A DNA stretch of 64,000 bases. Origin: Serratia sp. DD3. Lineage in GTDB: Bacteria; Pseudomonadota; Gammaproteobacteria; Enterobacterales; Enterobacteriaceae. Positions 3,763 through 11,170 of this stretch are shown piece after piece (within the stretch, counting starts at the first letter, position 1; every line of letters begins with the position of its first letter). The DNA is taken from positions 1-64,000 of the forward strand of contig NZ_AYKS02000100.1 in assembly GCF_000496755.2 (NCBI RefSeq), read 5' to 3'. Both the position numbers and the translations under genes were made by a program. The notes below the pieces were generated by a model, which was not told the origin of the DNA, searched no databases, and worked only from the letters and a program-made list of their open reading frames with translations.

Positions 3763-4872
3763 ATGACGCCCGAGACTTTGCCCACTGAACGCTATGATGA
3801 TCAACTGGCAGAAAAAACTGCCCGCCTGAAGACCATGATGTCTCCGTTTATGGCACCCGAGCCGGAAGTGTTTCGCTCGCCAGTCAGCCACTATCGCATG
3901 CGGGCAGAGTTCCGTATCTGGCATGATGAAGAAGATATGTATCACATCATGTTTGATCAGCAGACCAAACAACGCATTCGTGTAGATTCTTTCCCTGCGG
4001 CCAGTGAGCTGATCAACCGCCTGATGAGCGCGTTAATGGCAGCACTCAAGCCCAACCCGGTGCTTCGCCATAAATTATTCCAAATTGATTATCTCTCTAC
4101 CCAGAGCGGGAAAATCATTGCCTCTTTACTGTACCATCGCAAATTAGACGAGCAGTGGCAGCAAGCGGCCTCAGCATTGCGTGATACCTTACGTGCACAG
4201 GGGTTCGACCTCCAACTTATTGGCCGAGCCTCAAAAATGAAGGTGGTACTGGATCAGGATTATATTGATGAAGTCCTGCCCGTTGGCGGCCGTAATATGA
4301 TTTATCGGCAGGTGGAGAACAGCTTCACTCAGCCCAATGCGGCGATCAACGTGCAAATGTTGGAATGGGCGCTAGAAGTAACTCAGGATTCAAAAGGCGA
4401 CCTACTGGAACTGTATTGCGGTAACGGTAACTTCTCACTGGCACTGGCGCGCAACTTCGAACGGGTGTTGGCCACTGAGATCGCTAAACCGTCGGTGGCT
4501 GCAGCGCAATACAACATCGCTGCCAATCATATCGACAACGTACAGATTATCCGTATGGCCGCCGAAGATTTCACCCAAGCGATGCAGGGAGTACGTGAGT
4601 TCAACCGGTTAAAGGGGATCGACTTGAGCAGTTACCACTGCGAGACGATTTTCGTCGATCCTCCGCGTAGTGGGTTAGATGCTGAAACAATAAAGATGGT
4701 ACAAGCCTATCCGCGCATCCTTTATATCTCCTGCAACCCGGAAACACTGTGTGCCAACCTCGACACGTTGCAAGCCACACACAAAATTACCCGCCTGGCA
4801 CTGTTTGATCAGTTCCCTTACACCCACCATATGGAAGCGGGTGTGATGCTAGAGCGCATTGAATGCAAATAG
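3763..4872 (+). CDS. trmA: tRNA (uracil-5-)-methyltransferase TrmA
   Basis: TrmA makes 5-methyluridine at position 54 in the T-loop of all tRNAs, using S-adenosylmethionine. The 369-residue protein is collinear with E. coli TrmA. It has the SAM-binding motif [16 protein letters not shown] (about residues 212-227), the [10 protein letters not shown] motif, and the nucleophilic cysteine in YISCNPETL. The gene is divergent from btuB. Downstream, instead of meeting yijD directly as in E. coli, it faces a 5.9-kb island. Confidence 0.97.
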
Positions 4873-4947: not shown

Positions 4948-5106
4948 CTACAATCCGCTCAATCGTGTTTTTCTCTTGAGCTCTCTGGAAACAGTGGATT
5001 GACTGATGCTTAGCAGTTTAGCGATACGACTTTGCGAGCAACTGCTTTTCTTTAGGGCTTCGATCTGGCATCGTTGACCCTTGGTCAGTTGTCGATATTG
5101 TCTCAT
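4948..5106 (-). pseudogene. IS30-family transposase, N-terminal remnant
   Basis: The minus strand encodes 52 residues starting MRQYRQLTKGQRCQIEALKK and ending in a stop at 4948. This is the N-terminal helix-turn-helix of IS30-family transposases: the QRxQIEAL start, then SQSRIAKLLSISQSTVSREL. Everything after the DNA-binding head, including the DDE catalytic domain, is missing. About 100 bp beyond the start (5165-5203), DNA reading AGATTCAACTACCAAGTGCG on the minus strand resembles an IS30-type terminal sequence. The element is therefore a dead 5' fragment and marks the left edge of the accessory island. Confidence 0.75.
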
Positions 5107-5228
5107 TTTGTGCATCTCTTGCTGGAAAGCAAAAGGTGAGCTTACCAGCAGCTAACCTTTCCTTCTCAGCTATCGCAAGTTACGCACTTGGTAGTTGAAT
5201 CTAAGTCTGATTAAACGGACTGACCGGT

Positions 5229-6821
5229 TCAGAAATCAAATTCTATTGTATCATCATGACCTGCAAGCCTGATCGGCTCGGGAACATGTTTACGGCGAAC
5301 GATTTTTTCTGGATAACTTAGGAAGTGTTTTTCAAAAACACGGATAAGCGCGTCATTCCAGGTCGCATTTATTCTGGCGCGAATGTCATGCGGCTCCATG
5401 ACGATTATGTTATAACGTTGATTAATTGAATTCTGTTCTTGAAATTTACGAAGAGACTCTCTCGAATCTTCACCAAGCTTCCCGGTAGTCCATAATTCAA
5501 CGTTAATTTCAGCGTTGGGATATTCCCTTTTTGCATAGCTAAAGAATACCGGCACCTGCTTAGCAATCCATCTCTTCACATCCTCATGTCTCACCGTCGA
5601 ATATGGCTTATAGCCCTTGCACTCAATGAAGGTAATTTTCGCATTTCCCTTCAGACTAAGAACATCACATTCTGCCGTATCCCCCTTATGAGATTTACAT
5701 ATTTTTCCAACCTCAACATCCTTACTGTCTATACGCAAGGTCTCTGCGACAATATATTCAAACAAATCCCCCTGAAGCTGATTAGTCGCGCCGGCTATAT
5801 TCGCCAGCTTGGACATGATGTCATCTATTGCGGCTATATTATCCTTTAAGCTGAGCGTTATGGAGCCGACAAGATCCCGTAGCTGCAAAAGTGCATCAGC
5901 AAAGTCTTTCCCGAACAGATTTTCCGGCGTGGCGGGTATTATCCCGGCACGCTTCATTTCCAGAAATACCTCTTCACTGTATTCATCGGCGATGAACATA
6001 AACAGGCATCTGGGGCTGTTCCTGAGGCTGTTTATAGAGCGACATTTTGTAATAAAGGGCTTGAGATGCACCAGACTGAGTTTACAGCCCAAAAGCATAT
6101 CGCAGACAAAGAAACCAGGCCGGATTTCACCTGACCGGGAGAACTGCAGAAGAGGATTAAGATAAGATGCTGCAGTGACGTCAAAATCAAAATTTGCCAC
6201 GCAGGGAGTCTGATCCGAATTGAGTTCCTCTCGCGTACGCAGCGTGTCGTAACTAATGATGCCATTGTTACGGATCCACTGCCCCAGGGATTTCATCAGA
6301 ACTGACTCGGTGAGCAGCCTGGCTTTCAGGGGATGGAGCGCACGCAGATAACCGTTATCATTTTTTTCTGTCAGCGCAACACACTCACCCAGACCTGGTA
6401 ACGTAACGACCCTGACCATTTTGTACTGAAGCAGACCATCCAAAACTGACTTCCAGGATAATCTGTTTTTCATTGCTACCGGCGAACCGCAGGCCGCAGA
6501 AAAATTTCTGACCGGCAGGATCCCCCCGCGCGCCCTGAGGCAACTCAGTGCGAGACCGTAGGCCGAGCCGGTATCAAGAAGGGCCGTATTGAGACTGGAC
6601 CAGTAGCGCCCGGTACCATACTGCTGTTTCAGATAAACAAATCGCTCGCGCTTGGGGAAAAGCTTATCAACACAGTGAATCTGCCCTGCAGAAGCAGCCC
6701 GGGAAATCTGTTTGCGCGCGGTATCACGGTTAACTCCCAGGGTTTTCAGCATTTCCTCTACAAGTACAGAGCTAAGGCAAGGACCGATTTTGAGTAATGA
6801 AGTAGCTATAAATGATGTCAT
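5229..6821 (-). CDS. winged-helix / PD-(D/E)XK nuclease-like protein, function unknown
   Basis: The 530-residue protein is not a family I can name. Residues about 12-68 look like a winged helix-turn-helix (VEEMLKTLGV, DTARKQISRAASAGQI, FVYLK), and a second such unit may follow at 85-150. Residues about 351-430 have the layout of a PD-(D/E)XK nuclease core: GDLFEYIVAE (E355), ECDVL (D386) and IECKG (E400, K402), then a DVKRWIAKQVPVFF helix-strand. This is typical of restriction-like endonucleases. The ATG at 6821 was chosen; a GTG six codons upstream is in frame. A predicted terminator separates it from the ART-like gene upstream, so it may be a separate transcript. A defence role is inferred. 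Confidence 0.75.
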   Translation of the reverse strand: MTSFIATSLLKIGPCLSSVLVEEMLKTLGVNRDTARKQISRAASAGQIHCVDKLFPKRERFVYLKQQYGTGRYWSSLNTALLDTGSAYGLALSCLRARGGILPVRNFSAACGSPVAMKNRLSWKSVLDGLLQYKMVRVVTLPGLGECVALTEKNDNGYLRALHPLKARLLTESVLMKSLGQWIRNNGIISYDTLRTREELNSDQTPCVANFDFDVTAASYLNPLLQFSRSGEIRPGFFVCDMLLGCKLSLVHLKPFITKCRSINSLRNSPRCLFMFIADEYSEEVFLEMKRAGIIPATPENLFGKDFADALLQLRDLVGSITLSLKDNIAAIDDIMSKLANIAGATNQLQGDLFEYIVAETLRIDSKDVEVGKICKSHKGDTAECDVLSLKGNAKITFIECKGYKPYSTVRHEDVKRWIAKQVPVFFSYAKREYPNAEINVELWTTGKLGEDSRESLRKFQEQNSINQRYNIIVMEPHDIRARINATWNDALIRVFEKHFLSYPEKIVRRKHVPEPIRLAGHDDTIEFDF

Positions 6822-6880
6822 CTTTCGCTCGTATGTCACACTGCGTATTTAATAAAAACAATACATAATCAGTAGAGAAA

Positions 6881-6915
6881 CAAAAAAGACTGAATTTTTA
6901 GTTCATTAAATTCAG
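6881..6915 (-). terminator. rho-independent terminator after the ART-like gene
   Basis: On the minus strand CTGAATTT (6908-6915) and AAATTCAG (6890-6897) form an 8-bp stem around a 10-nt loop, followed by TCTTTTTTG. It lies in the 200-bp gap between the ART-like gene and the PD-(D/E)XK-like gene. Confidence 0.65.
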
Positions 6916-7022
6916 AAACTTAAACGAAAAAAATGAGGCGCCTTAGATTATCCGTCACAAACTCATGTTATCTGTAATAAATTTTGTCACATATAGACTC
7001 AGTATGGATGACATCTTCAACG

Positions 7023-7811
7023 CTACGAGATTTTGCCATAGATCTCATGCGAATTTGTGAATTCAACGTTCACAATTGCATCGCCAGAAACGGATATACC
7101 ATGTCGATCAATACCGAACACAGCGCCGCTATCCGGCGGCAGTTCTCTAACAGACGTATATGCGTAACTAAGCGCAGCTTCAAGCGCACCTTCTTCATAA
7201 TCAATATCCGCCCTGAAACAGACTATGCAAGGTTTCAGCACCTTAAGATAATGTCCTGTAAGATCTTGCCCATGCTTTTTTTGGTAAGCATTGCAGACAT
7301 CCTCTACCAGTTCCGGCAGACGCATATAATCGTGCTGCCAGAGTTTTCGGGTATGAAGATGGATCTCCCGTACAAGATGCCCGAATGGCCCCCAGTGCAT
7401 TTTGTTTGTAGTTCGCAACCGGAAGAGTTTGTCAGGTACGCCAGCATGAAAATTCCAGGCCTGCAATTTCTCTTTAACCTCAGCGTCTGGTGCCAGATTT
7501 ACCAGCATGTCCATCACCAGTGACTCAGCCTGGTTCAGCGCAAGTAAACCCTCTTCAAAAGTATTGTCAGCTAAAGTGCGGGTACCGTGAAACCAGTATG
7601 CGGTGGTGAACTCACCCGTAGAACCCAGTTCCGTACATACGTACTCTCTCAGATACTGTTGTGAGTCGACCATAATGGAATGATCTGTCTCGTAAATCTG
7701 CTCAATATCGAGCGATAACAACACATTCTTTAGCTCCATTACGCTACAACCAAAACCGGTAGAAAGCGTAAGCAGCGCCTGAGATCGTGTTGAACAATCG
7801 AGAGTAAACAT
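7023..7811 (-). CDS. putative ADP-ribosyltransferase-like protein paired with HEPN
   Basis: The 262-residue cytoplasmic protein has no signal peptide or membrane segment. Residues 72-78 read YWFHGTR, followed by TFEEGLLAL (84-92). A His-Gly-Thr strand followed about ten residues later by a Gly-Leu turn is the first signature of the PARP/Tpt1-type ADP-ribosyltransferase fold. Further conserved-looking blocks are GPFGHLVREI (141-150), LPELVEDVCNAY (165-176) and PCIVCF (194-199). The assignment is tentative because the later catalytic Tyr and Glu cannot be fixed by eye. The gene starts 11 nt after the HEPN stop, and its AAGGA ribosome binding site overlaps that stop, so the two are translationally linked. 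A defence or toxin role is inferred. Confidence 0.6.
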   Translation of the reverse strand: MFTLDCSTRSQALLTLSTGFGCSVMELKNVLLSLDIEQIYETDHSIMVDSQQYLREYVCTELGSTGEFTTAYWFHGTRTLADNTFEEGLLALNQAESLVMDMLVNLAPDAEVKEKLQAWNFHAGVPDKLFRLRTTNKMHWGPFGHLVREIHLHTRKLWQHDYMRLPELVEDVCNAYQKKHGQDLTGHYLKVLKPCIVCFRADIDYEEGALEAALSYAYTSVRELPPDSGAVFGIDRHGISVSGDAIVNVEFTNSHEIYGKIS

Positions 7812-7822
7812 AATTACGTTCC

Positions 7823-8314
7823 TTACACACCGTCAGAAGCTGGGGTGCCTCGGTGGCTTCTCATATTGGCGAGCAGCAAAGCCGCATAATATTTTAGAAA
7901 GGGTAGAAGCTCCGGGGCGCTGAAAATTGCATAGGCACGGCCTGCACCATGTGTCTCTTTAAAGACTATCTGATCAACCAAGCGTGCATCGCTGATGGAT
8001 TCAACCTGAACACAGAAATGCGCCACAGAATTTCGCATTTTATGAATTAGCTCTCTTAAGTTCATTTCCTCACCCGGTAACTGCGACTGGTTTAATCCAA
8101 TTTCAGCTTTAAGCTTCAGCGTTAAACGGTCTGACGGTAGGTAAGAAACAGCGCGCTCTTTCGGCATCACGATTAGACCCAGAAGACAGTTCAGCGTAAG
8201 CGTGTAGTTGTACTGCTCAGGGAATGGCTTGCCCTCAATCATGGCGTTGTATTGATCGATTAGGGCCAGCGTTCTTTCAATAAAATCAGTCTCAAAGTCA
8301 GAATAGTTTCCCAT
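7823..8314 (-). CDS. HEPN-domain protein (pEK499_p136-like), putative RNase
   Basis: The 163-residue all-helical protein carries KMRNSVAHF. This is the R-x4-H signature of HEPN ribonucleases (R94, N95, H99), preceded by NYTLTLNCLLGLIVMPKE, which resembles the pEK499_p136 subgroup of HEPN proteins. HEPN proteins often cut RNA in abortive-infection and toxin-antitoxin systems. A strong AGGAGG ribosome binding site (8319-8324) supports the ATG at 8314. A TATAGT -10-like hexamer lies within 40 nt upstream of the start. It is the first gene of a two-gene unit with the ART-like gene. Whether this is the toxin or the partner cannot be told from sequence. Confidence 0.75.
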   Translation of the reverse strand: MGNYSDFETDFIERTLALIDQYNAMIEGKPFPEQYNYTLTLNCLLGLIVMPKERAVSYLPSDRLTLKLKAEIGLNQSQLPGEEMNLRELIHKMRNSVAHFCVQVESISDARLVDQIVFKETHGAGRAYAIFSAPELLPFLKYYAALLLANMRSHRGTPASDGV

Positions 8315-8470
8315 TAAATCCTCCTGTGGTGATAGAAAATCAAACTATACCATCCAGAGATACTTAGGGTTCATCCCGAATTCTGCAGCGACCCCAACTA
8401 CCTTACCTGTTTACCATTTTCGGCTGGGTTCGGTGCACACATGACTGTGATTCATAGATGACGCTCAGCG

Positions 8471-9010
8471 TTATTTTTTCCTAGCCATCCATTCATGTGT
8501 TCTTTCTATCAAACTCTGAATTTGTTCTGAATAAACCTCGATAAAGGCCTTATTTTCAATGGTCACTTCATCGCCATCAACTTCAACAAAAGCGCCATCC
8601 TTCCTTGCTCCCCAGAAGTGTCCTTTCCTCCCATAAACCCTTAGCAGTGGCAAAATATCCTTGATACCGAAACGCTCTACAAACTCGTCATAGATACTCA
8701 TAATGTTTGCCCATTCCGGGAGTTGTTCTGCCTCAATACCCAGGAGGATAACGCCAGACTGAAACTCCCACGCCTGACGAACTTCAATAAACTCAGGTTC
8801 AGGCCATATTTCCTCTTTTGCAAAAATACTTAGTCCATTGTATTTCTGAGAGAAAGCCAGAAAGTTACCAGGAATTTTGATGCCTGTGGTTTTTTCAACC
8901 AGATCAGTAGATTCCTGTGACGGTGGGCGCGATATGACAAGATCAAATTCATCTCTGCTGACTGTCTTAGCAATTTTTATCATTTCATTGCAGAATTGTT
9001 CTGATGACAT
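8471..9010 (-). CDS. SMI1/KNR4 (SUKH)-family protein, putative immunity protein
   Basis: The 179-residue protein has the SUKH layout. An early segment reads TGIKIPGNFLAFSQKYNGLSIF (charged helix, then the IP-x-x-F-x-x-F-x-x-x-NG motif). An EFIEVRQAWEF segment and a GRKGHFWGARKDGAFVEVDG strand pair follow. Many SUKH proteins neutralise secreted nuclease toxins of contact-dependent or Rhs systems. No same-strand toxin is present, so this may be an orphan immunity gene. Its start codon overlaps the stop of a 64-codon upstream frame by one base, so coupling is possible. Confidence 0.7.
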   Translation of the reverse strand: MSSEQFCNEMIKIAKTVSRDEFDLVISRPPSQESTDLVEKTTGIKIPGNFLAFSQKYNGLSIFAKEEIWPEPEFIEVRQAWEFQSGVILLGIEAEQLPEWANIMSIYDEFVERFGIKDILPLLRVYGRKGHFWGARKDGAFVEVDGDEVTIENKAFIEVYSEQIQSLIERTHEWMARKK

Positions 9011-9204: not shown

Positions 9205-9242
9205 GGACTTAGTCCCTCAAACGAGTAAGTGAGGAAAGACAG

Positions 9243-9403
9243 ATGGCAAAATATCGGTCTGGGCAAGATGTCCCAAAACAGGTACATATGGTCAATATCA
9301 TGATACCGATAACTCATATGCCGGTTTTGAATATGATCACCATGTGAGCAAAGGTGATAAATTCCCACCAAGCAAAAACAATCACTACTTCAAAGAGAAG
9401 TAG
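9243..9403 (+). pseudogene. YjzC-like small protein gene, frameshifted
   Basis: A GAGGAAAG ribosome binding site precedes an ATG that reads MAKYRSGQDVPK. The frame then breaks at an A4 run (about 9274-9277). In the other frame the sequence continues TGTYGQYHDTDNSYAGFEYD and then GDKFPPSKNNHYFKEK to a TAG at 9401-9403. The joined protein of about 53 residues matches the pattern of small YjzC-like proteins (x-x-x-G-Q-x-x-P-x-x-G-x-Y, then GDKFPP). One missing A would explain it. Either the gene has decayed or the base call is wrong. Confidence 0.6.
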
Positions 9404-9428
9404 AATCACTTCGTTAGTCTTTACAAAA

Positions 9429-9561: not shown

Positions 9562-9864
9562 ATGCTTAAGACTGTACATTTGTGTCTATTGTCAGCTTTA
9601 GTCACGTCTCTGTTTTTTAACAATATCGCCATAGCAAAAGATACAGTGTCAGACGAACAGGTAAAACAGTCCATCATTAATGAATCAATAGCAGCCTATC
9701 CTGGAACGTGTGCATGCCCCTTTAACACTGCAAGAAATGGCAGCTCTTGTGGCGGTCGCAGCGCATGGAGTAAAGCTGGAGGGTATTCACCGATCTGCTA
9801 CAAAAAAGAAGTCACGAAAGAGATGATCAAACAATGGCGGGATTCTCACTCAATCAATAATTGA
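9562..9864 (+). CDS. small secreted Cys-rich protein, function unknown
   Basis: The 100-residue product begins with a clear signal peptide (MLKTVHLCLL then a hydrophobic run ending NIAIAKD), so it should be exported to the periplasm. The mature part carries CACPFNTARNGSSCGGRSAW, then GGYSPICY, giving four cysteines in a compact glycine/serine-rich segment. The CPxNxARNGSxCGxRSA motif recurs in small exported proteins of Gram-negatives, but I know of no proven function. An AAGGAG ribosome binding site lies 10 nt before the ATG. It is a single gene inside the island. Confidence 0.75.
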   Translation: MLKTVHLCLLSALVTSLFFNNIAIAKDTVSDEQVKQSIINESIAAYPGTCACPFNTARNGSSCGGRSAWSKAGGYSPICYKKEVTKEMIKQWRDSHSINN

Positions 9865-10788: not shown

Positions 10789-11157
10789 TTATTGTGGTGA
10801 ATTGTCTTCTGGCACTTTACGTGTCTTTAGTTTGAAACCAATCCAAAATACCAGTGCTACGCAGAGAATAGAGGGGATAAAGTTGGAACCTATCTGTGGA
10901 AATTGCACACGTATCATGGTGCTGTAGCCGAAAATACCTAACAGAAAACAAGCGGCAGCCAGTTTGGGCATCCCCTCCAACATCGGCTGGTTCAAATAGC
11001 GCTGATGCAGGCAATACACCGCCAGCACTAACGCAATCAATGGGAAGAGAGAAAACGGCACCACCGAACTAAATAGTGCAGCAAAAGAGCCGTTCATCGA
11101 CAAACCAGTAATTAAAGCCAGCAATAATGTGCCATTCTCACAGTTTGGTTTTTCCAT
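10789..11157 (-). CDS. yijD: inner-membrane protein YijD
   Basis: YijD is a conserved inner-membrane protein (DUF1422) of unknown function that follows fabR in Enterobacteria. The 122-residue product has four hydrophobic segments, with [20 protein letters not shown] and [13 protein letters not shown] matching E. coli YijD. The ATG at 11157 is preceded by AAGGTG at 8 nt. A GTG three codons upstream would lie on top of that ribosome binding site and is less likely. It starts 13 bp after the fabR stop, so the two form an operon. Confidence 0.93.
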
Positions 11158-11170
11158 CGTTTTCACCTTG

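Follow-up and report, generated by a model that had tools for sequence, protein, structure and literature searches.

A HEPN gene paired with an ADP-ribosyltransferase-like gene, and a predicted nuclease gene in an exchangeable slot behind them, between trmA and yijD of Serratia sp. DD3

A 64,000-nucleotide stretch of Serratia sp. DD3 (contig NZ_AYKS02000100.1, positions 1 to 64,000; hereafter the window) carries three minus-strand genes between trmA (3763–4872) and yijD (10789–11166): a HEPN ribonuclease (RNase)-type gene, a gene for an ADP-ribosyltransferase (ART)-like protein, and a third gene that joins a winged helix to a predicted PD-(D/E)XK nuclease domain. An earlier model-made description of this DNA, the original prediction, was drawn from the sequence alone and had placed the trio at this site correctly. 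All three genes lie within the ~5.9 kb that separate trmA from yijD, and the region is an insertion because the same two genes are spaced by 39 bp in E. coli K-12. We describe how firmly the first two genes are coupled, and how loosely the third is attached to them.

The HEPN gene (7823–8314) encodes 163 residues and belongs to the pEK499_p136 family (Pfam PF18736; E 2.5e-53, 180.3 bits against a cut-off of 26.6). Its motif, R94-x4-H99, was found where the original prediction had put it and is invariant in an alignment of 27 sequences. Among the best 120 of 238 relatives, 118 keep R-x4-H; the two that do not are 103 and 130 residues long and diverge at the motif. The motif sequence reads RNSVAHFCV, and the Tyr of R-x4-H-x-Y is not present. 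For WP_000528930.1, one NCBI record gives the label ‘HEPN family anti-phage nuclease’ and another ‘HEPN family nuclease’.

The ART-like gene (7023–7811, minus strand, 262 residues) begins 11 nt beyond the HEPN gene, and its Shine-Dalgarno sequence, TAAGGA, overlaps the HEPN stop codon. This overlap and the YWFHGTR motif had both been noticed before and are borne out. WFHGTR is found around residue 75, and PELVED around residue 167. FHxTR occurs in 40 of 44 relatives (39 FHGTR, one FHLTR), the other four being partial sequences of 155–185 residues; the closest relative, at 89%, is annotated in Kosakonia. An HGT-type NAD-binding motif is typical of PARP and KptA, and the family carries one. When the protein was compared with KptA by hhalign, the sole paired segment matched YWFHGTR with FLYHGTA, at a probability below 1%. 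The AlphaFold2 model, with a mean confidence (pLDDT) of 85.8, bears a weak likeness to ART folds. No nucleotidyltransferase family was matched by the protein or by its 26 aligned relatives.

The third gene (5229–6821, minus strand) starts at ATG 6821 or possibly at GTG 6839; its product has 536 residues counted from the GTG, and most aligned homologues begin at the residue of the ATG. It consists of an N-terminal winged helix, a middle alpha/beta domain and a C-terminal PD-(D/E)XK nuclease domain of the NERD/Mrr/Card1-like type. The catalytic core of the last domain comprises E361, D392, E406 and K408 in GTG numbering (E355, D386, E400 and K402 in ATG numbering). Among 40 relatives, E361 never varies and D392, E406 and K408 are each at least 90% conserved, and the structural model places the PD-(D/E)XK fold at the E361..K408 region. 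Structural matches support the winged helix at residues 1–90; the winged-helix part and the core first proposed for this protein both hold. In the middle domain (residues 170–330), E178, D220 and D247 are invariant, and a weak NucS-like structural match has no backing from profile comparison. Against Pfam, 40 members of the family match 26 families at E ≤1, and the 25 of these that were listed include no CARF model; the PADLOC model CARF_PDDEXK matches the protein at residues 338–414 only. The N-terminal winged helix and the lack of a CARF model among those listed families are differences from Card1/Can2 and from NERD/Mrr nucleases. The original prediction had offered either a nuclease or a DNA sensor; the models favour a predicted nuclease that carries a winged helix of the DNA-binding type, which probably acts on DNA and on its own. 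Remote relatives reside on small plasmids of ~3.3–3.6 kb, with similar ones in E. coli and Klebsiella; the largest annotated gene of the mobilisable 3.6-kb plasmid NZ_CP065110.1 (locus L041), for example, is a relative at 30%.

HEPN and the ART-like gene form a tight pair. In a survey of 5426 complete E. coli genomes, HEPN plus ART reached at least 80% coverage in 434 of 472 matching records and HEPN in 433 of 442, figures that measure DNA coverage at a single sensitivity and are blind to frameshifts. Because records holding the pair must contain part of HEPN, at most eight of the 442 HEPN-holding records can lack ART; a piece of ART with no HEPN match occurs in ~30 records. Together with the 11-nt gap, this upholds the earlier proposal that the first two genes are a toxin-type pair. 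On pEK499, a member of the ART-like family follows the HEPN gene after 12 bp, and an IS66 element and DUF3800 lie beyond.

The E. coli copies of the pair occupy 476 plasmid places out of 482, the other six being chromosomal. Among plasmid records, which were counted separately, the ART-like gene is present in 781 (531 of these plasmids are predicted to be conjugative) and HEPN in 745, and ccdAB, vapBC or partition genes lie close to the pair in several loci. Such a distribution would suit a plasmid-maintenance (addiction) module in which any effect on phages is secondary. Against this stand the window itself and the six chromosomal places in E. coli, none of them plasmid-borne, as well as the defence genes that neighbour some loci. 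PADLOC places Gabija ~6 kb from the pair of pEK499 and HerA (with SIR2) near the trio of locus L002; beside the nuclease, it finds RmrA in L058 and GajA in the Rhizobium locus L043. It matched eight of ten neighbour proteins, the ten having been chosen for looking like defence genes, and two large neighbour proteins, in L004 and L057, match no PADLOC model. The NCBI anti-phage label and the neighbours that PADLOC matches point to defence without proving it. An addiction module pure and simple seems to us rather unlikely, and the roles in addiction and defence are compatible with each other.

The original prediction took the three genes for one system, and here the surveys disagree with it. The trio does recur elsewhere, contrary to the complete lack of co-occurrence that the original prediction had named as refuting it: the DNA block at 5206–8374 is ~89.5% identical to E. 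coli plasmids and is matched in 71 of the 5426 genomes, and all 40 listed of the 72 matching rows span the three genes, one of them (H6) with an insertion sequence inside. Co-occurrence is nevertheless not obligate. At a coverage of at least 80%, the pair is present in 432 genomes and the third gene in 64 (72 at any coverage, some of the others being 85-bp matches inside a transposase region), and an alternative stretch, HEPN-ART-DUF3800, is found in 328 (loci L037 and L039). In six loci (L001, L002, L038, L057, L059 and L060), the nuclease is followed by DUF4238 within 33–34 bp and then by a KorC-like gene, and on a Serratia plasmid the KorC-like gene stands directly after ART. The slot behind HEPN-ART is exchangeable, holding the nuclease-DUF4238-KorC-like unit, DUF3800 or the KorC-like gene alone.

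The nuclease gene, for its part, belongs to a widespread family and is an independent unit that has no constant partner. In L057, L059 and L060, the nuclease-DUF4238-KorC-like unit stays where HEPN is gone and ART is reduced to a 3′ remnant; L074 lacks HEPN as well, and there IS200C interrupts the nuclease gene. HEPN stands beside the nuclease family in 0 of 34 GTDB loci, within the retrieved DNA and with some loci short. Same-strand neighbours of the family show no mutual similarity in 36 of 38 loci examined, the remaining two being without a usable frame. Some of these neighbours are very close (L014, L016 and L032, for example), and for that reason ‘no constant partner’ is safer wording than ‘always alone’. 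In one of the 34 loci, from Photorhabdus (L004), a 26-residue 5′ remnant of ART at 7662–7745 lies just downstream of a 47% nuclease relative, in the reverse of the plasmid order, which suggests a second association of ART with the nuclease.

The KorC-like gene (96 residues; 4575–4865, minus strand, in L001) is itself common, with matches in 1415 plasmids, some of them in rows that bear the name korC. It closes the variable stretch in most plasmid loci read, and is perhaps a marker of an exchange site.

One could take the whole array, from HEPN-ART through the swappable nuclease and DUF4238 to a KorC-like repressor, as a single modular system with interchangeable nuclease arms. The order and the ends recur on plasmids that carry different inserts, the three-gene block is present in all 40 listed E. 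coli rows of 72, and the Klebsiella trio described below keeps ART and nuclease together relative to HEPN. However, neither DUF4238 nor the KorC-like gene is in the window. The number of plasmids with the KorC-like gene far exceeds that of HEPN-ART; the nuclease unit outlasts the loss of HEPN-ART, even if the nuclease of L074 is broken; and in other proteobacteria the nuclease family has no adjoining HEPN. ART and the nuclease are separated by ~200 bp (6822–7022), HEPN and ART by 11 bp; the region does not clearly hold more promoter-like and terminator-like sites than shuffled sequence would. We judge a single modular system to be improbable.

Exchange also reaches into the pair. In the Klebsiella trio plasmid (L038), compared in 90-bp steps, the HEPN gene is 89–98% identical to the pEK499 type and 62–83% to the window, whereas the ART gene is 84–94% identical to the window and 58–78% to the pEK499 type. 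The recombination joint maps, to within ~90 bp, to the boundary of HEPN and ART, so that one HEPN allele can replace another beside an existing ART-nuclease block.

We next considered how the pair is lost. Twenty-four loci were read, nine with a full ART gene and fifteen with a damaged or truncated one, the latter taken from rows that looked split, partial or HEPN-less; at least ten further such rows (H44, H156, H158–H160, H180, H211, H218, H220 and H530) were left out. HEPN is intact, with RNSVAHF, in eight of the nine full-ART loci (the window, L001, L002, L037, L038, L039, L040 and L070). In the ninth, L132, ART and the nuclease are intact and HEPN is cut at its 5′ side, adjoining ISKpn26; ART without a full HEPN is therefore tolerated. 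Fourteen of the fifteen damaged-ART loci have no intact HEPN. Six show no HEPN match (L057, L059, L060, L067, L072 and L074), and another six carry a frameshifted HEPN (L062, L063, L064, L065, L068 and L073); these latter loci all adjoin TrlF and, where it is retained, DUF3800, and are probably one lineage. L071 has a stop in HEPN. In L066, HEPN is of full length but reads RNSVAPF, the catalytic His being changed to Pro; four of its residues depart from the closest intact relative, and two of the four positions are invariant across the aligned family. The losses agree with a toxin whose activity is difficult to maintain once the partner is gone, and shared decay would produce a similar picture.

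Joint loss would also be expected if both proteins were effectors, each useless alone, with HEPN cutting RNA, the ART-like protein modifying a target, either nucleic acid or protein, and both being needed for defence, so that neither is an antitoxin. Both motifs are conserved, and phage defence is known to employ ART toxins, CmdT among them (PMC9519451). This arrangement fares less well with L132, where ART is intact beside a cut HEPN. Moreover, unrestrained effectors on hundreds of plasmids need control, and none is seen here: none of the further genes recurs constantly enough for an antitoxin, the KorC-like gene being absent from the window and from the L037 stretch. We regard a pair of effectors as a serious alternative, though not a likely one.

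The reading we favour, with a probability of roughly 0.4, is that of two adjoining units: HEPN-ART, in which an RNase toxin would be held by an ART-like brake, and an independent nuclease in an exchangeable cargo slot. It draws on active-site conservation, tight pairing, slot exchange, independence of the nuclease and mostly joint loss; RNase activity, the role and chemistry of the brake, a phage trigger and DNA cleavage are inferred. The first unit would be a toxin-type module of two genes, carried by mobile elements, with HEPN for its ribonuclease toxin. The ART-like protein, whose gene is closely coupled to that of HEPN, would restrain the toxin, most likely by binding or ADP-ribosylating it, by analogy with the adenylylation of HEPN by MNT. 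Should the brake fail, for example upon phage takeover or plasmid loss, HEPN would cut RNA and growth would stop. The second unit, the winged-helix/PD-(D/E)XK nuclease in the slot behind the first, would probably act on foreign DNA. In a more specific form of the proposal, HEPN is covalently silenced by an ADP-ribosyltransferase in place of an MNT adenylyltransferase; the level of NAD+, or a phage activity that depletes NAD+ or removes ADP-ribose, could then release the toxin, and ARTs ~65% identical could serve one HEPN clade because a conserved site is modified. We hold this more specific form to be unlikely.

Several observations weigh against the two-unit reading. First, the ART fold is weakly supported by the model, which has no significant match in the PDB. 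Second, this ART-like protein is not a fixture of the wider HEPN family: three HEPN relatives at 27–45% identity (L044, L045 and L046) and L047 have no ART-like gene within flanks of ~1.5 kb. Third, in the Klebsiella plasmid the HEPN is of the pEK499 type and the ART of the window type, and any specific HEPN-ART contact must therefore tolerate ARTs ~65% identical. Fourth, L131 keeps HEPN intact beside a frameshifted ART, although two frame breaks in the nuclease gene within the same 3 kb suggest assembly indels. Fifth, much of the loss pattern is accounted for by simple decay of both genes together, and six damaged loci lost the upstream side, which takes HEPN first anyway. Finally, plasmids of this kind commonly carry defence genes.

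The toxin-and-brake part of the two-unit reading is proposed because of the analogy to HEPN-MNT, a module in which the HEPN gene comes first and has the motif R-x4-H-x-Y. Its HEPN ribonuclease is neutralised by oligoAMPylation, according to the title of Songailiene et al. (2020), cited in PMC10440598. Both modules couple a first gene bearing a HEPN RNase motif to a second gene for a likely group-transferring enzyme, but the partner in the window is not an MNT nucleotidyltransferase, and the window HEPN has no Tyr two residues past the motif His. DarTG is another toxin-type module with an ART-type enzyme, a feature that the pair would share. The same likeness extends to CmdTAC (PMC9519451). In the loci read, however, no SecB-like chaperone or macrodomain neighbour is annotated beside the pair, and the partner is a predicted HEPN RNase; ART has HEPN as one neighbour, and its other neighbour is a nuclease, DUF3800, KorC-like or insertion-sequence gene.

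The trio had been put forward as an undescribed module, which does not hold for the pair: it has been in print since 2013 and is present on pEK499. In the accessible portion of their survey, Anantharaman et al. (2013; PMC3710099) list operons of the pEK499_p136 HEPN with restriction-modification genes, ART-like enzymes and Macro, and others with a NamA-like RNase H fold nuclease and Pgl components. The window thus shares with that account the HEPN family, as assigned by Pfam, and the ART-like operon partner, whereas that portion names no PD-(D/E)XK third gene and reports no experiment. A literature search on the family identifiers turned up this paper only. DefensePredictor (PMC13092281) counts four validated HEPN systems among 31, with no names in the text, as well as 13 PD-(D/E)XK systems; most of the validated systems go unnamed there and could include this HEPN or nuclease. 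Our literature search found no experiment on the HEPN-ART pair. New in the present analysis are the exchangeable slot, the recombination joint at the HEPN/ART border and the joint loss.

Other reading frames accompany the trio in the insertion. Near its left border, a 55-residue open reading frame (4948–5115) resembles the N-terminus of a transposase that we take to be of the IS30 type. Upstream of HEPN, a SUKH-like (SMI1/KNR4) protein is encoded at 8471–9010 (minus strand), with weak Pfam matches below the cut-off; it is possibly an orphan immunity gene. At 9220–9405 (plus strand), a reading frame resembles a broken small protein, presumably of the YjzC type, with its start in one frame and the remainder in another. 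A 100-residue protein at 9562–9864 (plus strand) has a signal-like start and a Cys-containing CACPFNTARNGSSCGGRSAWSK stretch, and matches nothing in Pfam.

The pair is carried by the resistance plasmid pEK499 and, at a coverage of at least 80%, by 432 of 5426 complete E. coli genomes. If it is true that the ART-like protein restrains the HEPN RNase, ADP-ribosylation would join the known ways of switching off HEPN toxins. The exchangeable slot shows plasmids swapping defence parts, and it warns against taking adjacent genes as one system.

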